Below, one piece after another: positions 4,140-58,913 of a stretch of DNA of 64,000 nt (position 1 is its first letter; every line of letters starts with the position of its first letter). Source of the stretch: Deminuibacter soli (GTDB lineage: Bacteria; Bacteroidota; Bacteroidia; Chitinophagales; Chitinophagaceae); assembly GCF_003412455.1 (NCBI RefSeq), contig NZ_QTJU01000002.1, positions 558,001-622,000 of the forward strand, in the 5' to 3' direction. A program made the translations under genes and the position numbers. Below the pieces are notes generated by a model that worked only from the letters and a program-made list of their open reading frames with translations, searched no databases and was not told where the DNA came from.

Positions 4140-4252
4140 AGGTTCAATAGTTCAATGGTTCAATGGGTTCAATAGTTATCGACCGTTGATTCTCGAAAAC
4201 AGCCTCTTTGCGGCCTTTGCGGGCTTTCTCTTTGTGCTCTTTGCGGTAAAAA
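4140..4252. repeat. Intergenic simple-repeat patch (TTCAATGG words, TTTGCGG words, degenerate TCGAGAA word)
   Basis: Three low-complexity pieces follow one another. They are GGTTCAAT-type 8-9 nt words (4140-4175), a degenerate reverse copy of the TCGAGAA/TCGACAG word (about 4178-4197), and 9-nt-spaced TTTGCGG/TTTGTG words (4200-4245). All three recur at other intergenic sites in this window. The TTTGCGG type returns, inverted, at 56291-56342. No reading frame of interest is present. Confidence 0.6.
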
Positions 4253-8439: not shown

Positions 8440-8460
8440 ACTCACGACTGACGATTCACG
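8440..8460. repeat. Heptamer repeat (ACTCACG family)
   Basis: Three successive 7-nt words, ACTCACG, ACTGACG and ATTCACG, lie in the spacer between the M16 and phosphatase genes. The same words recur near 48107, 56250, 56449, 56636 and 58576 in either orientation. Confidence 0.65.
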
Positions 8461-18911: not shown

Positions 18912-19223
18912 CTTTCGTTTAAGTTTTTAATTGTTCAAATTCTCTTAGGTGAAGGGTCAAAATACATGCCCTTTTGATAGCAAATAAACGAACCTGTTTA
19001 ATCGTCAGATCAGCCTGATTTCCTTTTAACAAATAATTGACGAAAGGTGTCGTAGATGCAAAAGGATCGTGAAACCAGCTGTCAAATAAACAGTGTTCTG
19101 CTAAGTTACTTACAAAACGGCAGCTGAAGAAGATGGTTTAATGATTTGATGGTTGAATGGTTCGATGGCTTTATTGCTGGTTCTGCAACCATCAAACAAT
19201 CAAGCCATCAAACTATCAAACAA
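18912..19223. other. Gene-free spacer between degP and the acyl-CoA reductase gene
   Basis: About 310 nt. The degP-proximal part is AT-rich and should hold its minus-strand promoter; a TTTG and a TATTTTG box are present but their spacing is off consensus. The distal part (19139-19225) is a patch of 7-9 nt words of the ATGGTTGA / CATCAAAC type, the two halves being rough reverse complements of each other. No credible small gene was seen. Confidence 0.5.
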
Positions 19224-23300: not shown

Positions 23301-23368
23301 CCATCGAGAATCGAGAATCGACAGTCGAGATGATCGGAGCGAATGTTGCCGGTGGGGACACCGGCAAC
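23301..23368. repeat. Composite intergenic repeat: TCGAGAA heptamers plus hairpin
   Basis: The words TCGAGAA (twice), TCGACAG and TCGAGAT are followed by a GCGAATG tail and a perfect 10-bp hairpin, GTTGCCGGTG (23345-23354) with CACCGGCAAC (23359-23368), loop GGGA. This is one of the best-preserved copies of the dispersed element. Heptamer-like TCACTATTCACC words follow (23390-23420). Confidence 0.8.
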
Positions 23369-25798: not shown

Positions 25799-25877
25799 TG
25801 TCGCTTTTTTTAAACAGTTCAATAATTGGGAACAGGGAAATGTGCTTGCAGGAGAGGACAATAGCAAAAACTGGTCG

Positions 25878-25959
25878 CCTTCCCTTCGCAGGAATTACCC
25901 TGTTCAGGTTCAACGGGTGTAATCTCAGCCTCCGTTTTACGGGAAGCACCCCGAGGAAA
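25878..25959 (-). promoter_or_regulatory. TPP riboswitch (THI element)
   Basis: Read on the minus strand, all conserved THI-box blocks are present in order. They are CGGGGTGC (25953-25946), CTGAGATTACACCCG in the middle (about 25927-25913), GAACCTGA, then a GGGTAATTCC stretch and the closing GCGAAGGGA (25889-25881). The outer helix CCT/AGG closes the aptamer. About 80 nt separate it from the receptor start codon. No strong terminator hairpin with a T-run lies between. A segment ATTGTC just below the aptamer could pair with GACAAT overlapping the start codon, so control may be translational (inference). Confidence 0.95.
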
Positions 25960-26177
25960 TAGAAAAACCGATGGTTGAATGGAGTAATGGTTTTATGGTT
26001 AAAAGCCATTGAGCCATCGAACAAATTAACTATTGCCGGTTAGAAATATTCAGTCCGGCGTGCCTGGCCAGGCAGTATTGTTCAGATCGGTTATTTTGCA
26101 AAGTAAACGCAGAAATTTTAGAATAACTGTAACATTTTTAACAAAACGCCGTTTCACCAACACAAACAGTAGAATGT
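25960..26177. other. Spacer upstream of the TPP riboswitch and of the GIN-domain gene
   Basis: The stretch 25968-26032 is another patch of ATGGTTGA / CCATTGAG words. The rest should hold divergent promoters: the minus-strand one for the receptor and the plus-strand one for the GIN-domain gene. Only partial -7 boxes (TATTTTG, TAATTTG) were seen. Confidence 0.4.
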
Positions 26178-27048: not shown

Positions 27049-27120
<72 letters not shown>

Positions 27121-32986: not shown

Positions 32987-33027
32987 TCGAGAATCGAGAA
33001 TCGACAGTCGAGACGATCTTAGCGAAT
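32987..33027. repeat. TCGAGAA heptamer repeat
   Basis: Exact 7-nt phasing: TCGAGAA at 32987 and 32994, TCGACAG at 33001, TCGAGAC at 33008, then the ATCTTAGCGAA tail. It lies between the lipoprotein stop and its terminator. Confidence 0.8.
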
Positions 33028-33076: not shown

Positions 33077-33103
33077 GAAGCCGGTGTCCTCACCGGCGCT
33101 TCT
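33077..33103. repeat. Dispersed 4-nt-loop hairpin
   Basis: GAAG-CCGGTG pairs with CACCGG-CGCTTC around loop TCCT. It is the same hairpin family as at 23345, 40084, 48013, 56160 and 58719, with different bases at the foot of the stem. Confidence 0.65.
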
Positions 33104-35369: not shown

Positions 35370-35450
35370 TGGTTAGATGGCCTGATGGCCCGATGGCTGA
35401 ATAGTTATTGAATACAACAACCATTGAACCATTGAGCCATATAGCCATTT
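35370..35450. repeat. Intergenic patch of ATGGCC / CCATTGAAC words
   Basis: About 80 nt between DUF4954 and glmS made of repeated 8-9 nt words, with the two halves roughly inverted relative to each other (GATGGCCxGATGG and ACCATTGAACCATTGAG). It resembles the patches at 4140, 19139 and 25968. Confidence 0.55.
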
Positions 35451-45922: not shown

Positions 45923-46259
45923 AGCAGAATTGTTATCGTAAATATAAGGAAGAGCTGTTAGCTGATAGCGGTTAGCTGTTAGCCTTTTTTTAGCTGCGAG
46001 CTTTGAGCAGCGAGCTGGCCGATTACTTCATGCAGCAAAATGCAACCTGCAACTCTAAACATTAAACCTTCAAACTTTAAACTCCTTTTGTCCGCTTGTG
46101 AACAGGAAACTGTTCGCCTGCGGACAATTTGTTTTTCTTAACAGTTTACAGTTCGATTCATTCTCAGTGAGTTACGGCTGGCACAACCACATGGCACCGG
46201 TTTGGCATTATACCTAACATCAAACGCAAACAATAAAAAAACTTATAAAAACTACGTTT
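45923..46259. other. Spacer rich in AGCTGTT heptamers
   Basis: About 335 nt. The segment 45953-46019 consists of 7-nt words (AGCTGTT, AGCTGAT, AGCGGTT, AGCTGTT and later AGCTGCG, AGCTTTG, AGCAGCG, AGCTGGC). A patch of TCTAAAC / ATTAAAC / TTTAAAC words lies at 46057-46083. The region nearest 46260 is AT-rich and should contain the promoter of the next gene. No gene found. Confidence 0.55.
45953..46019. repeat. AGCTGTT-type heptamer repeat
   Basis: Perfect 7-nt phasing of AGC words at 45953, 45960, 45967 and 45974, interrupted by a T-run, then again at 45992, 45999, 46006 and 46013. The same family occurs at 46703-46730, 46741-46761, 46840-46867 and 56464-56498. Confidence 0.75.
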
Positions 46260-46694
46260 ATGAAAAAGATTATCCTCGCCGCCATCATCGCTATCAGCCT
46301 TACTGCAACTGCATTTGCTGGTACTACTAACGACAAAGTAAGCACTACATTTAAAAAAGCATGGCCTGCCGCCAGCATCACCAGCTGGAAAGTAAACGGC
46401 ATGATCACTACCATCAGCTTTACTGTTGATAACCTGAACATGCAGGCTTTCTACGACGAAGAAGGCAACTTCATGGGCACCAGCCGCCCGGTACAGCTGA
46501 CTGAATTACCTGCTGCTGCACAAACCACCATCAAAGACAAATACCAGGATTATACAGCTACTGAAGCCATTGAAATGAACTCTACCACTGCAGGCTTCAA
46601 CTACTATGTATCACTGGAAAAAGATACGCAGAAACTGATTCTGCAGGTTGCACAGGATGGCAGCGTAAAAACATTTAAGAAGCTGAGGAAATAG
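46260..46694 (+). CDS. Small secreted PepSY-like protein
   Basis: A 144-aa exported protein with signal peptide at residues 1-20 (MKKIILAAIIAISLTATAFA). The mature part has two alpha/beta units resembling PepSY-like folds: FKKAWPAASITSWKVNGMITTISFTVDN near the start, and IKDKYQDYTATEAIEMNSTTAGFNYYVSLE later. It ends in a basic KTFKKLRK. Such proteins are common in Bacteroidota as secreted or periplasmic proteins of unknown role, and the family assignment is by pattern only. It is monocistronic. Confidence 0.75.
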   Translation: MKKIILAAIIAISLTATAFAGTTNDKVSTTFKKAWPAASITSWKVNGMITTISFTVDNLNMQAFYDEEGNFMGTSRPVQLTELPAAAQTTIKDKYQDYTATEAIEMNSTTAGFNYYVSLEKDTQKLILQVAQDGSVKTFKKLRK

Positions 46695-46702
46695 CAGAAG
46701 AA

Positions 46703-46867
46703 AGCTGTAAGCTGATAGCTGTTAGCGCTTAGCCTTTTTTAGCTGCGAGCTACGAGCTTTTAAGACAAACAATATTATAACGGAGCGTCTTTGCAATGAG
46801 TAATACCTGCGAAGGCGCTCTTTTTTATTGCTCGCGGAAGCTAATCGCTAAAAGCTACCAGCTATTG
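46703..46867. repeat. AGCTGTT-type heptamer repeats
   Basis: Three blocks of 7-nt words: AGCTGTA, AGCTGAT, AGCTGTT, AGCGCTT (46703-46730); AGCTGCG, AGCTACG, AGCTTTT (46741-46761); and GCTAATC, GCTAAAA, GCTACCA, GCTATTG (46840-46867). They lie between two convergent genes. The stretch AGGCGCTCTTTTTT near 46812 may contribute to termination. Confidence 0.7.
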
Positions 46868-46873
46868 GCTTCC

Positions 46874-49256: not shown

Positions 49257-51111
49257 AAACGGGAAGTTTGAACCAGTAATTATAATACTTGTGTCGCCAT
49301 CTGTGTTTTTGTAACGATGCCAGGGCGTGAATCGTGAGGCGTGAGTGATCTGAGGCAATTCGAGAATCGAGAATCGACAGTCGAGACTACCTTAGCGGGT
49401 CTGATCGTGTGCTGTGATCAAGGTCATTTAGTTAAGTCACTGTTACACCGCTGCTTTTTCTCTTAGGAAAAAATTGAATATTGAAACAATTGAACTATTT
49501 GAACCCCTCCGGTCCAACTTTACACTTCAAACGTTAAACCTTCAACCAGCGTACAACACTATTGAGCTAAACTAAACAACATTGAGTTTCAGTGGTGAGT
49601 GAGTTGAGCAGGGCAATTCCCGAGAATCGAGAATCGACAGTCGAGACTATCTTAGCGGGTCTGATCGTGTGCTGTGATCAATGTCATTTAGTTAAATCAC
49701 TGTTACACCGCTGCTTTTTCTCTGTAAAGTGCCTTAGGAAAAAATTGAACATTGAAACAATTGAACTATTTGAACCCCTCCGGTCCAACTTTAAACTTCA
49801 AACGTTAAACCTTAAACCAGCGTACAACACTATTGAGCTAAACTAAACAACATTGAGTTGTCAGTTGTGAGTGAGTTGAGCGGGGGCAATTCGAGAATCG
49901 AGAATCGACAGTCGAGACTACCTTAGCGGGTCTGATCGTGTGCTGTGATCAATGTCATTTAGTTAAATCACTGTTACACCGCTGCTTTTTCTCTTAGGAA
50001 AAAATTGAACATTGAAACAATTGAACTATTTGAACCCCTCCGGTCCAACTTTACACTTCAAACGTTAAACCTTCAACCAGCGTACAACACTATTGAGCTA
50101 AACTAAACAACATTGAGTTGTCAGTCGTGAGTGATCTGAGCGGGGGCAATTTCGAGAATCGACAGTCGAGACTACCTTAGCGGGTCTGATCGTGTGCTGT
50201 GATCAATGTCATTTAGTTAAGTCACTGTTACACCGCTGCTTTTTCTCTGTAAAGTGTCTTAGGAAAAAATTGAACATTGAAACAATTGAACTATTTGAAC
50301 CCCTCCGATCCAACTTTAAACTTCAAACGTTAAACTTTAAACCAACGTACAACACTATTGAGCTAAACTAAACGACATTGAGTTATCAGTTGTGAGTGAG
50401 TTGAGCGGGGGCAATTCGAGAATCGAGAATCGACAGTCGAGACTATCTTAGCGGGTCTGATCGTGTGCTGTGATCAAGGTCATTTAGTTAAATCACTGTT
50501 ACACCGCTGCTTTTTCTCTTAGGAAAAAATTGAACATTGAAACAATTGAACTATTTGAACCCCTCCGATCCAACTTTACACTTCAAACGTTAAACCTTAA
50601 ACCAGCGTACAACGCTATTGAGCTAAACTAAACAACATTGAATTGTCAGTCGTGAGTGATCTGAGCGGAGGCAATTCGAGAATCGAGAATCGACAGTCGA
50701 GACTACCTTAAGCGGGTCTGATCGTGTGCTGTGATCAATGTCATTTAGTTAAATCACTGTTACACCGCTGCTTTTTCTCTGTAAAGTGCCTTAGGAAAAA
50801 ATTGAACATTGAAACAATTGAACTATTTGAACCCCTCCGGTCCAACTTTACACTTCAAACGTTAAACCTTAAACCAGCGTACAACACTATTGAGCTAAAC
50901 TAAACGACATTGAGTTGTCAGTGTTGAGTGAGTTGAGCGGGGGCAATTTCGAGAATCGACAGCCGAGATGACCGAAGCGAGTAATATAACTGCCGCCGGG
51001 GGCAACTTACACCCAACAGGCTGGCAGCCCGTAGCCTGAAGCTTGCTGCTAAAAAAAGACCTGCCCCCATTACAGAGGCAGGCCATATTTGAACATATCT
51101 ACGTTGGCGGA
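49257..51111. other. 1.85-kb intergenic region dominated by a tandem array
   Basis: The space between the GH18 and aconitase genes has no supported coding sequence. The longest frames in it are short and composed of the repeat words. It contains the array at 49341-50966 and, next to aconitase, a CCTGCC/GGCAGG hairpin (about 51060-51085) that may terminate the aconitase transcript on the minus strand. Confidence 0.7.
49341..50966. repeat. Tandem array of six 254-271-nt units with alternating short and long forms
   Basis: The marker GAATCGACAG starts at 49371, 49631, 49902, 50156, 50427, 50687 and 50953, giving spacings of 260, 271, 254, 271, 260 and 266 nt. Units 1, 3 and 5 lack, and units 2, 4 and 6 contain, an 11-nt insertion (GTAAAGTGCCT or a close variant) after TTTTTCTCT. 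The real period is therefore a short-plus-long dimer of about 525-531 nt, present three times. Each unit contains TCGAGAA heptamers, a CAATGTCATTTAGTT / AACTAAACAACATTG inverted pair, and TTTAAAC-type heptamers. Copies are nearly identical, so the amplification looks recent. Confidence 0.95.
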
Positions 51112-56159: not shown

Positions 56160-56240
56160 TTGCCGGTGTCCTCACCGGCAACATTCGCTCATCCATAGTC
56201 TCGCTGCAATCATCTCTACTGTCGATTCTCGATTCCCGAA
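56160..56240. repeat. Composite intergenic repeat in reverse order
   Basis: A 9-bp hairpin, TTGCCGGTG (56160-56168) with CACCGGCAA (56173-56181), loop TCCT, is followed by CATTCGCT and the reverse heptamer block TCTACTG, TCGATTC, TCGATTC (to about 56236). Order and spacing mirror the plus-oriented copies at 23.3 and 58.7 kb. Confidence 0.78.
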
Positions 56241-56265: not shown

Positions 56266-56366
56266 TCAATGTCGTTTAGTTAAGCGTGAGTGATATTTTT
56301 ACCGCAAAGAACGCAAAGGGAAAACCCGCAAAGTTCACAAAGAAGCTGTTAACTAAACGACATTGA
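56266..56366. repeat. 101-nt element with 18-bp perfect terminal inverted repeats (MITE-like)
   Basis: TCAATGTCGTTTAGTTAA (56266-56283) and its exact reverse complement TTAACTAAACGACATTGA (56349-56366) flank 65 nt containing CGCAAAG words with ~9-nt spacing. Almost the same ends (CAATGTCATTTAGTTAA and AACTAAACAACATTG) occur inside every unit of the array at 49.3-50.9 kb. Inverted ends of this size on a short non-coding body suggest a non-autonomous transposon derivative. Confidence 0.65.
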
Positions 56367-56388: not shown

Positions 56389-56620
56389 CGCCAAGATAGT
56401 CTCGACTGTCGATTCTCGATTCTCGAAATTGGCACTCGCTAAGATCACTCACGACTGAAAAACAGCTGCAAGCTTCAAGCTATCAGCTGCAAGCTTGTTC
56501 AGTATTTATCACCTCCGGCGAAAGTTATGATACTCGCTAAGATAGTGTCGACGTGTCGATTCTCGAAAATGGTACTCGCTCAGATCATCTCGACTGTCGA
56601 TGTCTCGATTCTCGAAAATG
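56389..56620. repeat. Reverse-oriented TCGAGAA blocks and AGCTGCA heptamers
   Basis: Reverse TCGACTG / TCGATTC words with the CGCTAAGAT lead occur at 56389-56430, 56529-56570 and 56576-56620. Between them, AGCTGCA, AGCTTCA, AGCTATC, AGCTGCA and AGCTTGT are phased by exactly 7 nt from 56464. ACTCACG words follow the blocks at 56449 and 56636. Confidence 0.7.
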
Positions 56621-57602: not shown

Positions 57603-58571
57603 ATGTCAACTGTTCGGGAAAAAGTACTGGTTATCGGTGCCAGCGGGCAAATTGGTGTAGAGCTCACACTGGCTTTAAGAAAAATTTATGGCAATAACAA
57701 TGTGGTCGCCACCGATCTGCGTGAAGAAAACGAATTATTGAAGGGTACCGGCCCGTATGTAAGCCTGGATGTAATGAACAAGGAAATGCTGCACGTACTG
57801 GTGCTGCGCCAGAACATTACACAGATATACCTGCTGGCAGCCATTCTTTCGGCTACCGGCGAAAAAAATCCCAACCTGGCCTGGAACCTCAATATGCAGG
57901 GCCTGCTGAACGTGCTGGATATTGCACGTGAAGAAAAACTGCACAAAGTGTACTGGCCCAGCAGCATCGCTGTATTTGGCCCCACTTCACCCAAACAGGA
58001 TTGTCCGCAGCAAACCATTATTGAGCCTACCACGGTGTACGGCATCAGCAAATATGCCGGTGAATTCTGGTGTCACTATTTCAACAACCGCTATGGTGTT
58101 GATGTGCGCAGCATCCGCTACCCCGGCCTGATCAGCTATAAATCAGCACCAGGCGGCGGTACCACCGACTACGCAGTAGAAATTTACCATGATGCGCTGA
58201 GCGATAAGCATTACGACTGCTTCCTGCGGGAAGACACGTACCTGCCCATGATGTACATGCCCGACGCGATCCGTGCCACCATTGAACTGATGGAAGCGCC
58301 GGCCGAGAAAATCAAGGTGCGTACTTCGTATAATGTATCGGGTATGAGTTTTTCACCCAAAGAAATCAGCGCTGCCATACAGCAACATATCCCTGATTTT
58401 ACCATCCGCTACGAGCCGGATTACCGCCAGGCCATTGCAGACAGCTGGCCGCAGAGCATCGACGATTCCACCGCCCGCAGCGATTGGGGCTGGAAACCGG
58501 AATATGATCTCAATGCCATGACCAAAGACATGCTCGACAACCTGAAAAACGAAATAGGAGAGCACCAGTAG
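57603..58571 (+). CDS. SDR-family L-threonine 3-dehydrogenase-like enzyme
   Basis: A 322-aa extended short-chain dehydrogenase/reductase. The NAD-binding motif is GASGQIG (residues 13-19) and the catalytic pair is in YGISKYAGEF (YxxxK). PGLISYKSAPGGGTTDYAVEIYHDAL matches the substrate-loop signature of SDR-type threonine dehydrogenases, better than UDP-sugar epimerases. The reaction would be L-threonine to 2-amino-3-ketobutyrate with NAD+. The usual partner, 2-amino-3-ketobutyrate CoA ligase, is not adjacent, although an alpha-oxoamine synthase lies at 10.4 kb. The downstream spacer carries a heptamer microsatellite and a strong terminator. Confidence 0.85.
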   Translation: MSTVREKVLVIGASGQIGVELTLALRKIYGNNNVVATDLREENELLKGTGPYVSLDVMNKEMLHVLVLRQNITQIYLLAAILSATGEKNPNLAWNLNMQGLLNVLDIAREEKLHKVYWPSSIAVFGPTSPKQDCPQQTIIEPTTVYGISKYAGEFWCHYFNNRYGVDVRSIRYPGLISYKSAPGGGTTDYAVEIYHDALSDKHYDCFLREDTYLPMMYMPDAIRATIELMEAPAEKIKVRTSYNVSGMSFSPKEISAAIQQHIPDFTIRYEPDYRQAIADSWPQSIDDSTARSDWGWKPEYDLNAMTKDMLDNLKNEIGEHQ

Positions 58572-58592
58572 CATGAGCGTGAATCGTCAGTT

Positions 58593-58655
58593 GTGAGTGG
58601 TGAGTGGTGAGTGGTGAGTTGTGAGTGGTGAGTGGTGAGTGGTGAGTGGTGAGTG
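58593..58655. repeat. GTGAGTG heptamer microsatellite (nine units)
   Basis: Nine head-to-tail 7-mers; eight are GTGAGTG and the fourth is GTGAGTT. They are followed at once by TC-ATTCGAGAA heptamers. The reverse complement CACTCAC is found as a shorter run at 58849-58876. Confidence 0.95.
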
Positions 58656-58658
58656 TCA

Positions 58659-58742
58659 TTCGAGAATCGAGAATCGACAGTCGAGACGATCGCAGCGAGA
58701 CCATAGATGGAAGCGAACGTTGCCGGTGAGGACACCGGCAAC
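58659..58742. repeat. Composite intergenic repeat with hairpin
   Basis: TCGAGAA (twice), TCGACAG, TCGAGAC and a GCAGCGA tail (58660-58701) are followed by a perfect 10-bp hairpin, GTTGCCGGTG (58719-58728) with CACCGGCAAC (58733-58742), loop AGGA. Confidence 0.82.
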
Positions 58743-58755
58743 GGCAGTATAAAAG

Positions 58756-58798
58756 AAAGCCCCCGCTCCCGGCTTAGCCGGAAGCGGGGGCTTTTTTA
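58756..58798 (+). terminator. Terminator of the SDR gene
   Basis: AAAGCCCCCGCT pairs with AGCGGGGGCTTT (58757-58793) with an inner CCGGC/GCCGG stem, followed by TTTTATT. Confidence 0.92.
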
Positions 58799-58801
58799 TT
58801 C

Positions 58802-58876
58802 ACTATTGACTATTCACTATTGACTATTCACCAATGATCCCCTTCGCCTACTCACCACTCACCACTCACCACTCAC
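58802..58876. repeat. ACTATTG and CACTCAC heptamers
   Basis: ACTATTG, ACTATTC, ACTATTG, ACTATTC are phased by 7 nt (58802-58829). After a short gap, three perfect CACTCAC units and one imperfect one follow (58849-58876), running into the next terminator. Confidence 0.82.
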
Positions 58877-58913
58877 AAAAAACGCCCCCGGCTAAACCGG
58901 GGGCGTTTTTTTA
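58877..58913 (-). terminator. Terminator of the Rrf2 gene
   Basis: A near-perfect ~15-bp stem, AAAAAACGCCCCCGG (58877-58891) with its complement ending 58912. It abuts the Rrf2 stop codon, which lies in the ascending arm on the minus strand. Confidence 0.9.

Follow-up and report, generated by a model that had tools for sequence, protein, structure and literature searches.

The genome to which this DNA belongs (Bacteroidota, 5.83 Mb in 24 contigs) carries hundreds of short degenerate heptamer arrays between its genes, and most of them read outward from the nearest gene. The 7-nt period was confirmed to be real and confined to spacers. Lag-7 tests were performed on three scopes: the whole stretch of 64 kb analysed here, referred to as the window, 864 kb, and 1.264 Mb including 158 kb of spacer DNA. 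For the array counts 1.26 of the 5.83 Mb were read, and genes were called with a simple caller of our own rather than taken from a curated annotation. Protein comparison placed the relatives mostly in Chitinophagaceae (Flavihumibacter, Terrimonas, Niabella), at 46-58% identity.

In the spacers of the window the identity was 0.308 at lag 7, compared with 0.247 at lag 6 and 0.265 at lag 8, and in the coding DNA of the window the lag-7 identity of 0.2425 equalled background. Exact runs 8 nt or longer in the spacers of the 864 kb numbered 29 at lag 7, 1 at lag 6 and 9 at lag 8, and dinucleotide shuffles of these spacers gave no such run at lag 7. Coding DNA of the 864 kb demonstrated no lag-7 excess, with 6 exact runs against 15 in shuffles. 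An excess at lag 7 over lags 6 and 8 in spacers and not in genes had been predicted in an earlier note on this DNA, and autocorrelation, run counts and word-fixed counts all bear the prediction out; the outcomes named there as contrary, no lag-7 excess or an equal one in genes, did not occur.

Degenerate arrays in the 1.264 Mb were distributed by period as follows: 2 at period 4, 0 at 5, 1 at 6, 65 at 7, 23 at 8, 3 at 9 and 1 at 10, with harmonics at 14, 16 and 21. Genome-wide, AGCT was found three times at 7-nt spacing (AGCT-N3-AGCT-N3-AGCT) in 178 places, compared with one for N4 spacing and one for N2, and three TCGA words were found 176 times at 7-nt, 26 times at 8-nt and never at 6-nt spacing. 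In this dominant tandem period of 7 nt the spacers agree with the heptanucleotide LSSR/STRR class. A typical array has about 3-6 units; a few are perfect (GTGAGTG, AGCTATC) and the majority are degenerate by column. The strict 7-nt rule of the earlier note proved too narrow: period 7 is dominant and not exclusive, an 8-nt class being present alongside (19132-19221 and 4142-4177 in the window) and TCGA occurring also with 8-nt spacings.

The period-8 degenerate arrays (GTTCAATN, CATCAAAC, GATGGTTT), found additionally at 35419-35440, often form inverted pairs, and with a mean z of -1.6 they have more structure than those of period 7. The CTTTGCGG-type 8/9-nt arrays (TTTGCGGTAAAAA) at 4200-4250 and 56290-56340 are a further style of short degenerate repeat. 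The features of the window are collected in Table 1.

Table 1. Arrays, repeats and genes in the 64-kb window
Position	Strand	Feature	Remark
8440-8460	+	AYTSACN-family array ACTCACG ACTGACG ATTCACG	
19132-19221		Inverted pair of period-8 arrays (GATGGTTT.. / AACCATCA..)	Exception to the 7-nt rule
23303-23330	+	TCGA-family array	In a convergent spacer
25864-25963	-	TPP riboswitch	Ordinary
27049-27120		tRNA gene	Ordinary
32987-33013	+	TCGA-family array TCGAGAA TCGAGAA TCGACAG TCGAGA	Followed by GATCTTAGCG
33080-33097, 56162-56179, 58722-58739		18-mer GCCGGTGAGGACACCGGC	Also in other spacers of the genome
45953-45983	+	AGC-family array AGCTGTT AGCTGAT AGCGGTT AGCTGTT AGC	
45992-46017	+	Second AGC-family array AGCTGCG AGCTTTG AGCAGCG AGCT	3' of a T7 tract
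46051-46083	+	AACNTYR-family array	Left edge of duplicated block
46260-46694	+	144-aa gene, no Pfam match	Duplicated with flanking arrays
46702-46733	+	AGC-family array	8 nt past stop codon of 46260-46694 gene
46741-46758	+	AGCTGCG AGCTACG AGCT	Duplicate copy has exactly two extra heptamers
46839-46872	-	AGC-family array, inverted	Near stop of 46874-47929 gene
49354-50959	none	260-bp composite unit, six in tandem	With TCGA, AAC and ACT arrays
49787-49818	+	AACNTYR-family array AACTTTA AACTTCA AACGTTA AACCTTA AACC	
56402-56426	-	TCGA-family array	
56464-56496	+	AGCT-N3 array	In dispersed element (GAAAAC[AGCTNNN]4 .. CTGTTYAGTRTAAATCGCC)
58589-58655	-	AYTSACN family, read as GTGAGTG x9	Sense strand right after stop of 57603-58571
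58660-58686	+	TCGA-family array	
58797-58831	+	AYTSACN family (TATTCACTATTGAC)n	
58850-58876	+	AYTSACN family, ACTCACC x3.9	Pairs in inverted orientation with 58589-58655 (27 nt exactly complementary)

Four degenerate units, AGCTNNN, TCGANNN, AACNTYR and AYTSACN, accommodate all 65 period-7 arrays, by an assignment that takes the best phase and strand and is therefore generous. Every word listed in the earlier note was found at its position, and the GTGAGTG array from 58593, given there as nine copies, is present with eight exact units plus one GTGAGTT. The words had been described as unrelated-looking, which was not supported, since they fall into the four families and ACTCACG, ACTGACG, ATTCACG, ACTATTG/C and GTGAGTG all belong to AYTSACN. 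Nor are the listed arrays all independent of each other: TCGAGAA-TCGAGAA-TCGACAG-TCGAGA is one near-fixed sequence with several copies in the 260-bp tandem repeat.

The columns of a unit are conserved to very different degrees. In AACNTYR the mismatch between neighbouring units is 0.76 at column 4, which is the random level, and 0.03, 0, 0.12 and 0.12 at columns 1, 2, 3 and 5, respectively. Column 4 of AYTSACN is nearly always C or G, with a mismatch of 0.49 beside 0.02-0.07 in the constant columns, and the pattern is seen again in G004, a genome of a different genus (0.56 at column 4, 0-0.06 in constant columns). In AGCT arrays the core recurs and the N3 identity of adjacent units is 0.38, compared with 0.31 for shuffled pairing. 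A word-free test of column clustering, based on fewer arrays, was weakly positive (p=0.04 in this genome, p=0.36 in relatives). Since free columns stand beside near-invariant ones, tandem copying followed by uniform decay does not give the observed pattern. A palindromic core was rejected as the key feature, as it fits AGCT and TCGA and not AYTSACN.

The arrays favour gene 3' ends, often directly past the stop codon, and have a fixed polarity. Their density in the 1.264 Mb was 1.04 per kb in convergent spacers, falling to 0.32 per kb in co-directional and 0.25 per kb in divergent ones, and AYTSACN arrays beginning at most 10 nt from the stop codon made up 12 of the 33 at 3' edges, versus 2 of the 15 at 5' edges. 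With one polarity per family relative to the nearest gene edge, agreement was obtained for 59/70 arrays near 3' ends, 23/27 near 5' ends and 12/15 in divergent spacers; because the polarity sign of each family was fitted to these very arrays, the test is fairer near 5' ends and in divergent spacers. The first two figures correspond to the geometry of the Rehm type, with the sense strand past stops and the antisense strand before starts. The 3'-end polarity was replicated in one other genus, the arrays abutting gene 3' ends in G004 holding the family polarity. In a word-free test on relatives G exceeded C in the outward direction in 27 of 37 arrays lying at most 60 nt from a gene edge (p=0.004), and only the 3' part of this result is informative because the background at 5' edges is already skewed (0.70).

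The genes followed by arrays also avoid TAA. This stop codon was used by 6 of 24 genes with a sense-strand array at up to 14 nt and by 6 of 22 with one at 15-60 nt, compared with 66% of array-free convergent and 72% of array-free co-directional genes (Fisher 2e-4 and 4e-6, respectively, for the 14-nt class). GC3, higher in array genes, does not account for the deficit. TGA terminates each of the seven genes abutted by arrays in G004, against a high background of 13 TGA to 7 TAA which includes those seven. Back-up stops, newly formed gene ends and weak constraint are all candidate causes of TAA avoidance.

The number of units changes by whole heptamers, via slippage or unequal exchange. A near-identical paralogue of the gene at 46260-46694 is present in the same genome (C11:127954-128388), the result of a recent duplication that included the spacers. 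When the 3' spacers of the two paralogues were aligned, a gap of 14 nt, i.e. two heptamers, was found in the AGC array at 46741, and shorter gaps that are not heptad-sized were found further along; close homology of the duplicated block stops at arrays on both sides. In orthologous spacers of two species of the genus g75, AGCTATC arrays are one unit apart and other arrays vary within the 7-nt register. Copying in 7-nt steps, for which a comparison of orthologous spacers had been proposed as a check, is thus upheld for unit number by the duplicated spacer as well as by the sister species.

Composite dispersed repeats, with modules in an inverted-symmetric order, include TCGA arrays and many of the AGCT arrays. 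The nested order ACT< TCGA> CCGG <TCGA ACT> occurs in many spacers of this genome with the 18-mer GCCGGTGAGGACACCGGC at the centre, and this 18-mer was found in 18 places in 1.26 Mb, often mid-spacer among arrays. The AGCT element has conserved flanks common to several spacers, and the 260-bp units occupy a single 1.9-kb spacer. Pairing of arms was not supported: arms taken from one spacer were scarcely more similar to each other than arms taken across spacers (9.6 vs 7.9; for AGC 6.1 vs 7.1), and the longest exact complement to the partner array in the same spacer was significant in 18% only. Mobilisation by RAYT/Y1 transposases (PF01797) was rejected as array number does not track the transposase: this genome (G000) has one Y1 gene, other genomes have Y1 and lack arrays, and the array-rich G004 and G020 gave weak matches only.

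The period-7 arrays of this genome folded with a z of -0.65, compared with -3.0 in array-free convergent controls, and thus do not behave as intrinsic-terminator hairpins. A hairpin or terminator role in this genome was rejected on this comparison and on the analysis of arm pairing. In the genus g75 (L187-L191, L195, L197, L198), unlike in the genome of the window, AGCT-N3 arrays form the arms or loops of strong hairpins.

The families are unevenly spread among relatives, and three of the four, AGCT, ACT and AAC, are shared with many other Bacteroidota. In other genera of the family AGCT-N3 arrays numbered 166, 69, 42, 17, 11 and 9 per genome, with none in many, and across the phylum their distribution is patchy (31/118 genomes). 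Three AYTSACN units were found 718+633 times in G004, 280+224 times in G003 and 127+115 times in G022, with 0-8 in reversed controls. AACNTYR occurs in several genera, spelled locally, and the TCGA pattern is nearly restricted to this genome within the family, with 5-15 occurrences in a few other genomes of the phylum. In sampled regions of family members period 7 was found 20 times, versus 1-5 times for each other period from 4 to 13, and these period-7 arrays are often built of other words. A long perfect GAGTTCT heptad array, broken by an assembly gap of N, was observed in G092 (L194:5756-6020). Viral contigs with AGCT heptads were seen among the matches listed, their enrichment over chance not being established, and plasmid similarity to the 58572-58910 spacer was dismissed as a single, chance-like match of 44 nt.

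The joint explanation that we tentatively prefer is that of degenerate heptad arrays shaped by whole-unit slippage together with a 7-nt recognition register. The spacers carry a class of arrays in which each unit is a 7-nt word with near-fixed and near-free columns. Slippage or unequal exchange alters the unit number one or more entire heptamers at a time, as shown, and the conserved columns would be held against decay, most likely with each heptamer serving as one site for a putative nucleic-acid-binding factor with a 7-nt register. It is chiefly at gene 3' ends that arrays are tolerated or retained, abutting stops in a fixed polarity, and some arrays of this genome have also spread as modules of composite dispersed repeats; the heptads of Xanthomonas and Nostoc, with other words and the same geometry, are taken as the same kind. 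For the fixed columns we infer a putative binding factor as the best cause. A binding protein with 7-nt spacing had been suggested in the earlier note, and the suggestion is favoured by free columns beside near-fixed ones, which slippage alone does not explain; as a candidate the RNA-binding protein RbpB was set aside because its top published motif is 41 nt long and no heptad link was found. Against the preferred explanation, the factor is putative, several families in one genome would need several factors or one flexible factor, and perfect arrays such as (AGCTATC)n resemble plain slippage.

Plain slippage, in which the polymerase duplicates or deletes 7-nt (sometimes 8-nt) units that persist where no gene or promoter is harmed, follows the idea of Mrazek et al. 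for heptanucleotide repeats, as far as it is reported in PMC4692102 and PMC4679880. The one-unit difference between perfect (AGCTATC)n arrays of sister species, the exact 14-nt difference in the duplicated spacer and the depletion of arrays from divergent spacers and coding DNA agree with it, but it does not explain polarity towards gene edges, the recurrence of few families genome-wide and in distant genera, or column-specific degeneracy, where a random level stands beside near zero and C/G toggling is seen in two genera. Slippage as the sole cause is considered unlikely. Rather doubtful, too, is the proposal of a composite repeat of the BIME/MITE kind, inverted-symmetric and moved by an enzyme, whose arms the arrays would form, so that the period reflects the structure of its ends. 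The nested ACT/TCGA/CCGG order recurring in many spacers, the conserved flanks of AGCT arrays in several spacers and the 260-bp tandem units speak for such an element, whereas AGCT arrays in G020, G008 and G022 have no shared flanks, the arms of one spacer hardly resemble each other more than arms across spacers, Y1 copy number does not follow array number, and period 7 is found elsewhere with other words.

The remaining explanations appear much less probable. Array-derived tails could close reading frames, as 7 equals 1 modulo 3 and a stop-bearing heptad closes all three frames within about 21 nt, and could be selected as a back-up behind weak TGA or TAG codons. TAA is indeed used by only 12/46 genes with a sense array at up to 60 nt versus 66-72% elsewhere, all three frames are closed by a median of 48 nt versus 92-113 nt, and ACT arrays contain, per 35 nt, 4.35 stops on the sense strand versus 0.96 on the opposite strand. 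However, TCGA and AGCT-NCN arrays have few stops, AAC and AGCt arrays have about equal numbers on the other strand, in-frame back-up stops (0.61) are not significantly more frequent than behind other TAG/TGA genes (0.52, p=0.33), and arrays near 5' ends and the fixed columns are left unexplained. Similarly improbable is a role in terminating transcription between convergent genes, with the arrays as arms or loops in long hairpins: convergent spacers are enriched in arrays and the AGCT arrays of g75 have good folds, with a mean z of -2.8 and several perfect inverted repeats, but period-7 arrays here are no more structured than array-free spacers, paired arms lack complementarity in their free columns, and separate GC-rich terminators adjoin the arrays (58572-58910). 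A long shot is a DNA-level process shared by several phyla that builds heptads outward from gene edges, e.g. a telomerase-like extension of free 3' ends at breaks in 7-nt steps or templated end repair. If it exists, it would have left as scars the outward arrays, the inverted pairs and the arrays that border duplicated blocks, and it would unify the heptads of Chitinophagaceae, Xanthomonas and Nostoc regardless of word.

The kind of repeat is known; the degenerate grammar, the number of families and the shared geometry without G-quadruplexes appear to be new. The earlier note knew of no general rule of this sort, yet PMC4679880 and PMC4692102 cite Mrazek (2007) for heptanucleotides being the most abundant class of long repeats in most bacterial genomes. 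To the extent that these citations describe them, the long simple sequence repeats of Mrazek are likewise most commonly heptanucleotide, with polymerase slippage proposed, but the arrays found here are column-degenerate, so most would escape a survey of exact repeats. Rehm et al. (2015; PMC4692102) described GGGAATC/(GGGANTN)n in Xanthomonas and GGGGA(C/T)T in Nostoc and discussed G-quadruplexes. Unit length, degenerate positions and the preferred strand (sense close to stops, antisense close to starts) are common to their arrays and ours, as are unit number and inverted pairs in the case of Xanthomonas; the differences are that several word families per genome, an accompanying period-8 class and arrays within composite elements are found here. 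A fixed GGG is present in none of the consensus words AGCTNNN, TCGANNN, AACNTYR and AYTSACN on either strand, and as the geometry is nevertheless shared, quadruplexes cannot be the common cause.

MacGregor (2015; PMC4679880) reported intergenic TAACTGA direct repeats, some of them in Bacteroidetes, that are oriented relative to genes. In one Bacteroidetes species their orientation is forward ahead of start codons and reversed behind a stop codon, which is the same geometry in few cases, but they consist of one fixed word located mostly just upstream of start codons, unlike the arrays described here, and TAACTGA was the unit of 0/65 period-7 arrays. BrickBuilt of Porphyromonas gingivalis (PMC4596501) is likewise a tandem repeat within a dispersed intergenic element of Bacteroidota, although this MITE minisatellite has a 23-nt unit and terminal inverted repeats and lacks a heptad register.

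That heptamers dominate among bacterial repeats was remarked on in 2007 and has awaited an explanation since. In the present work the period is found with column-degenerate words that are not G-rich, in many genera, and its whole-unit steps are seen directly. In cultivable Bacteroidota that carry such arrays, slippage, a factor with a 7-nt register and outward extension of ends are separable from each other.
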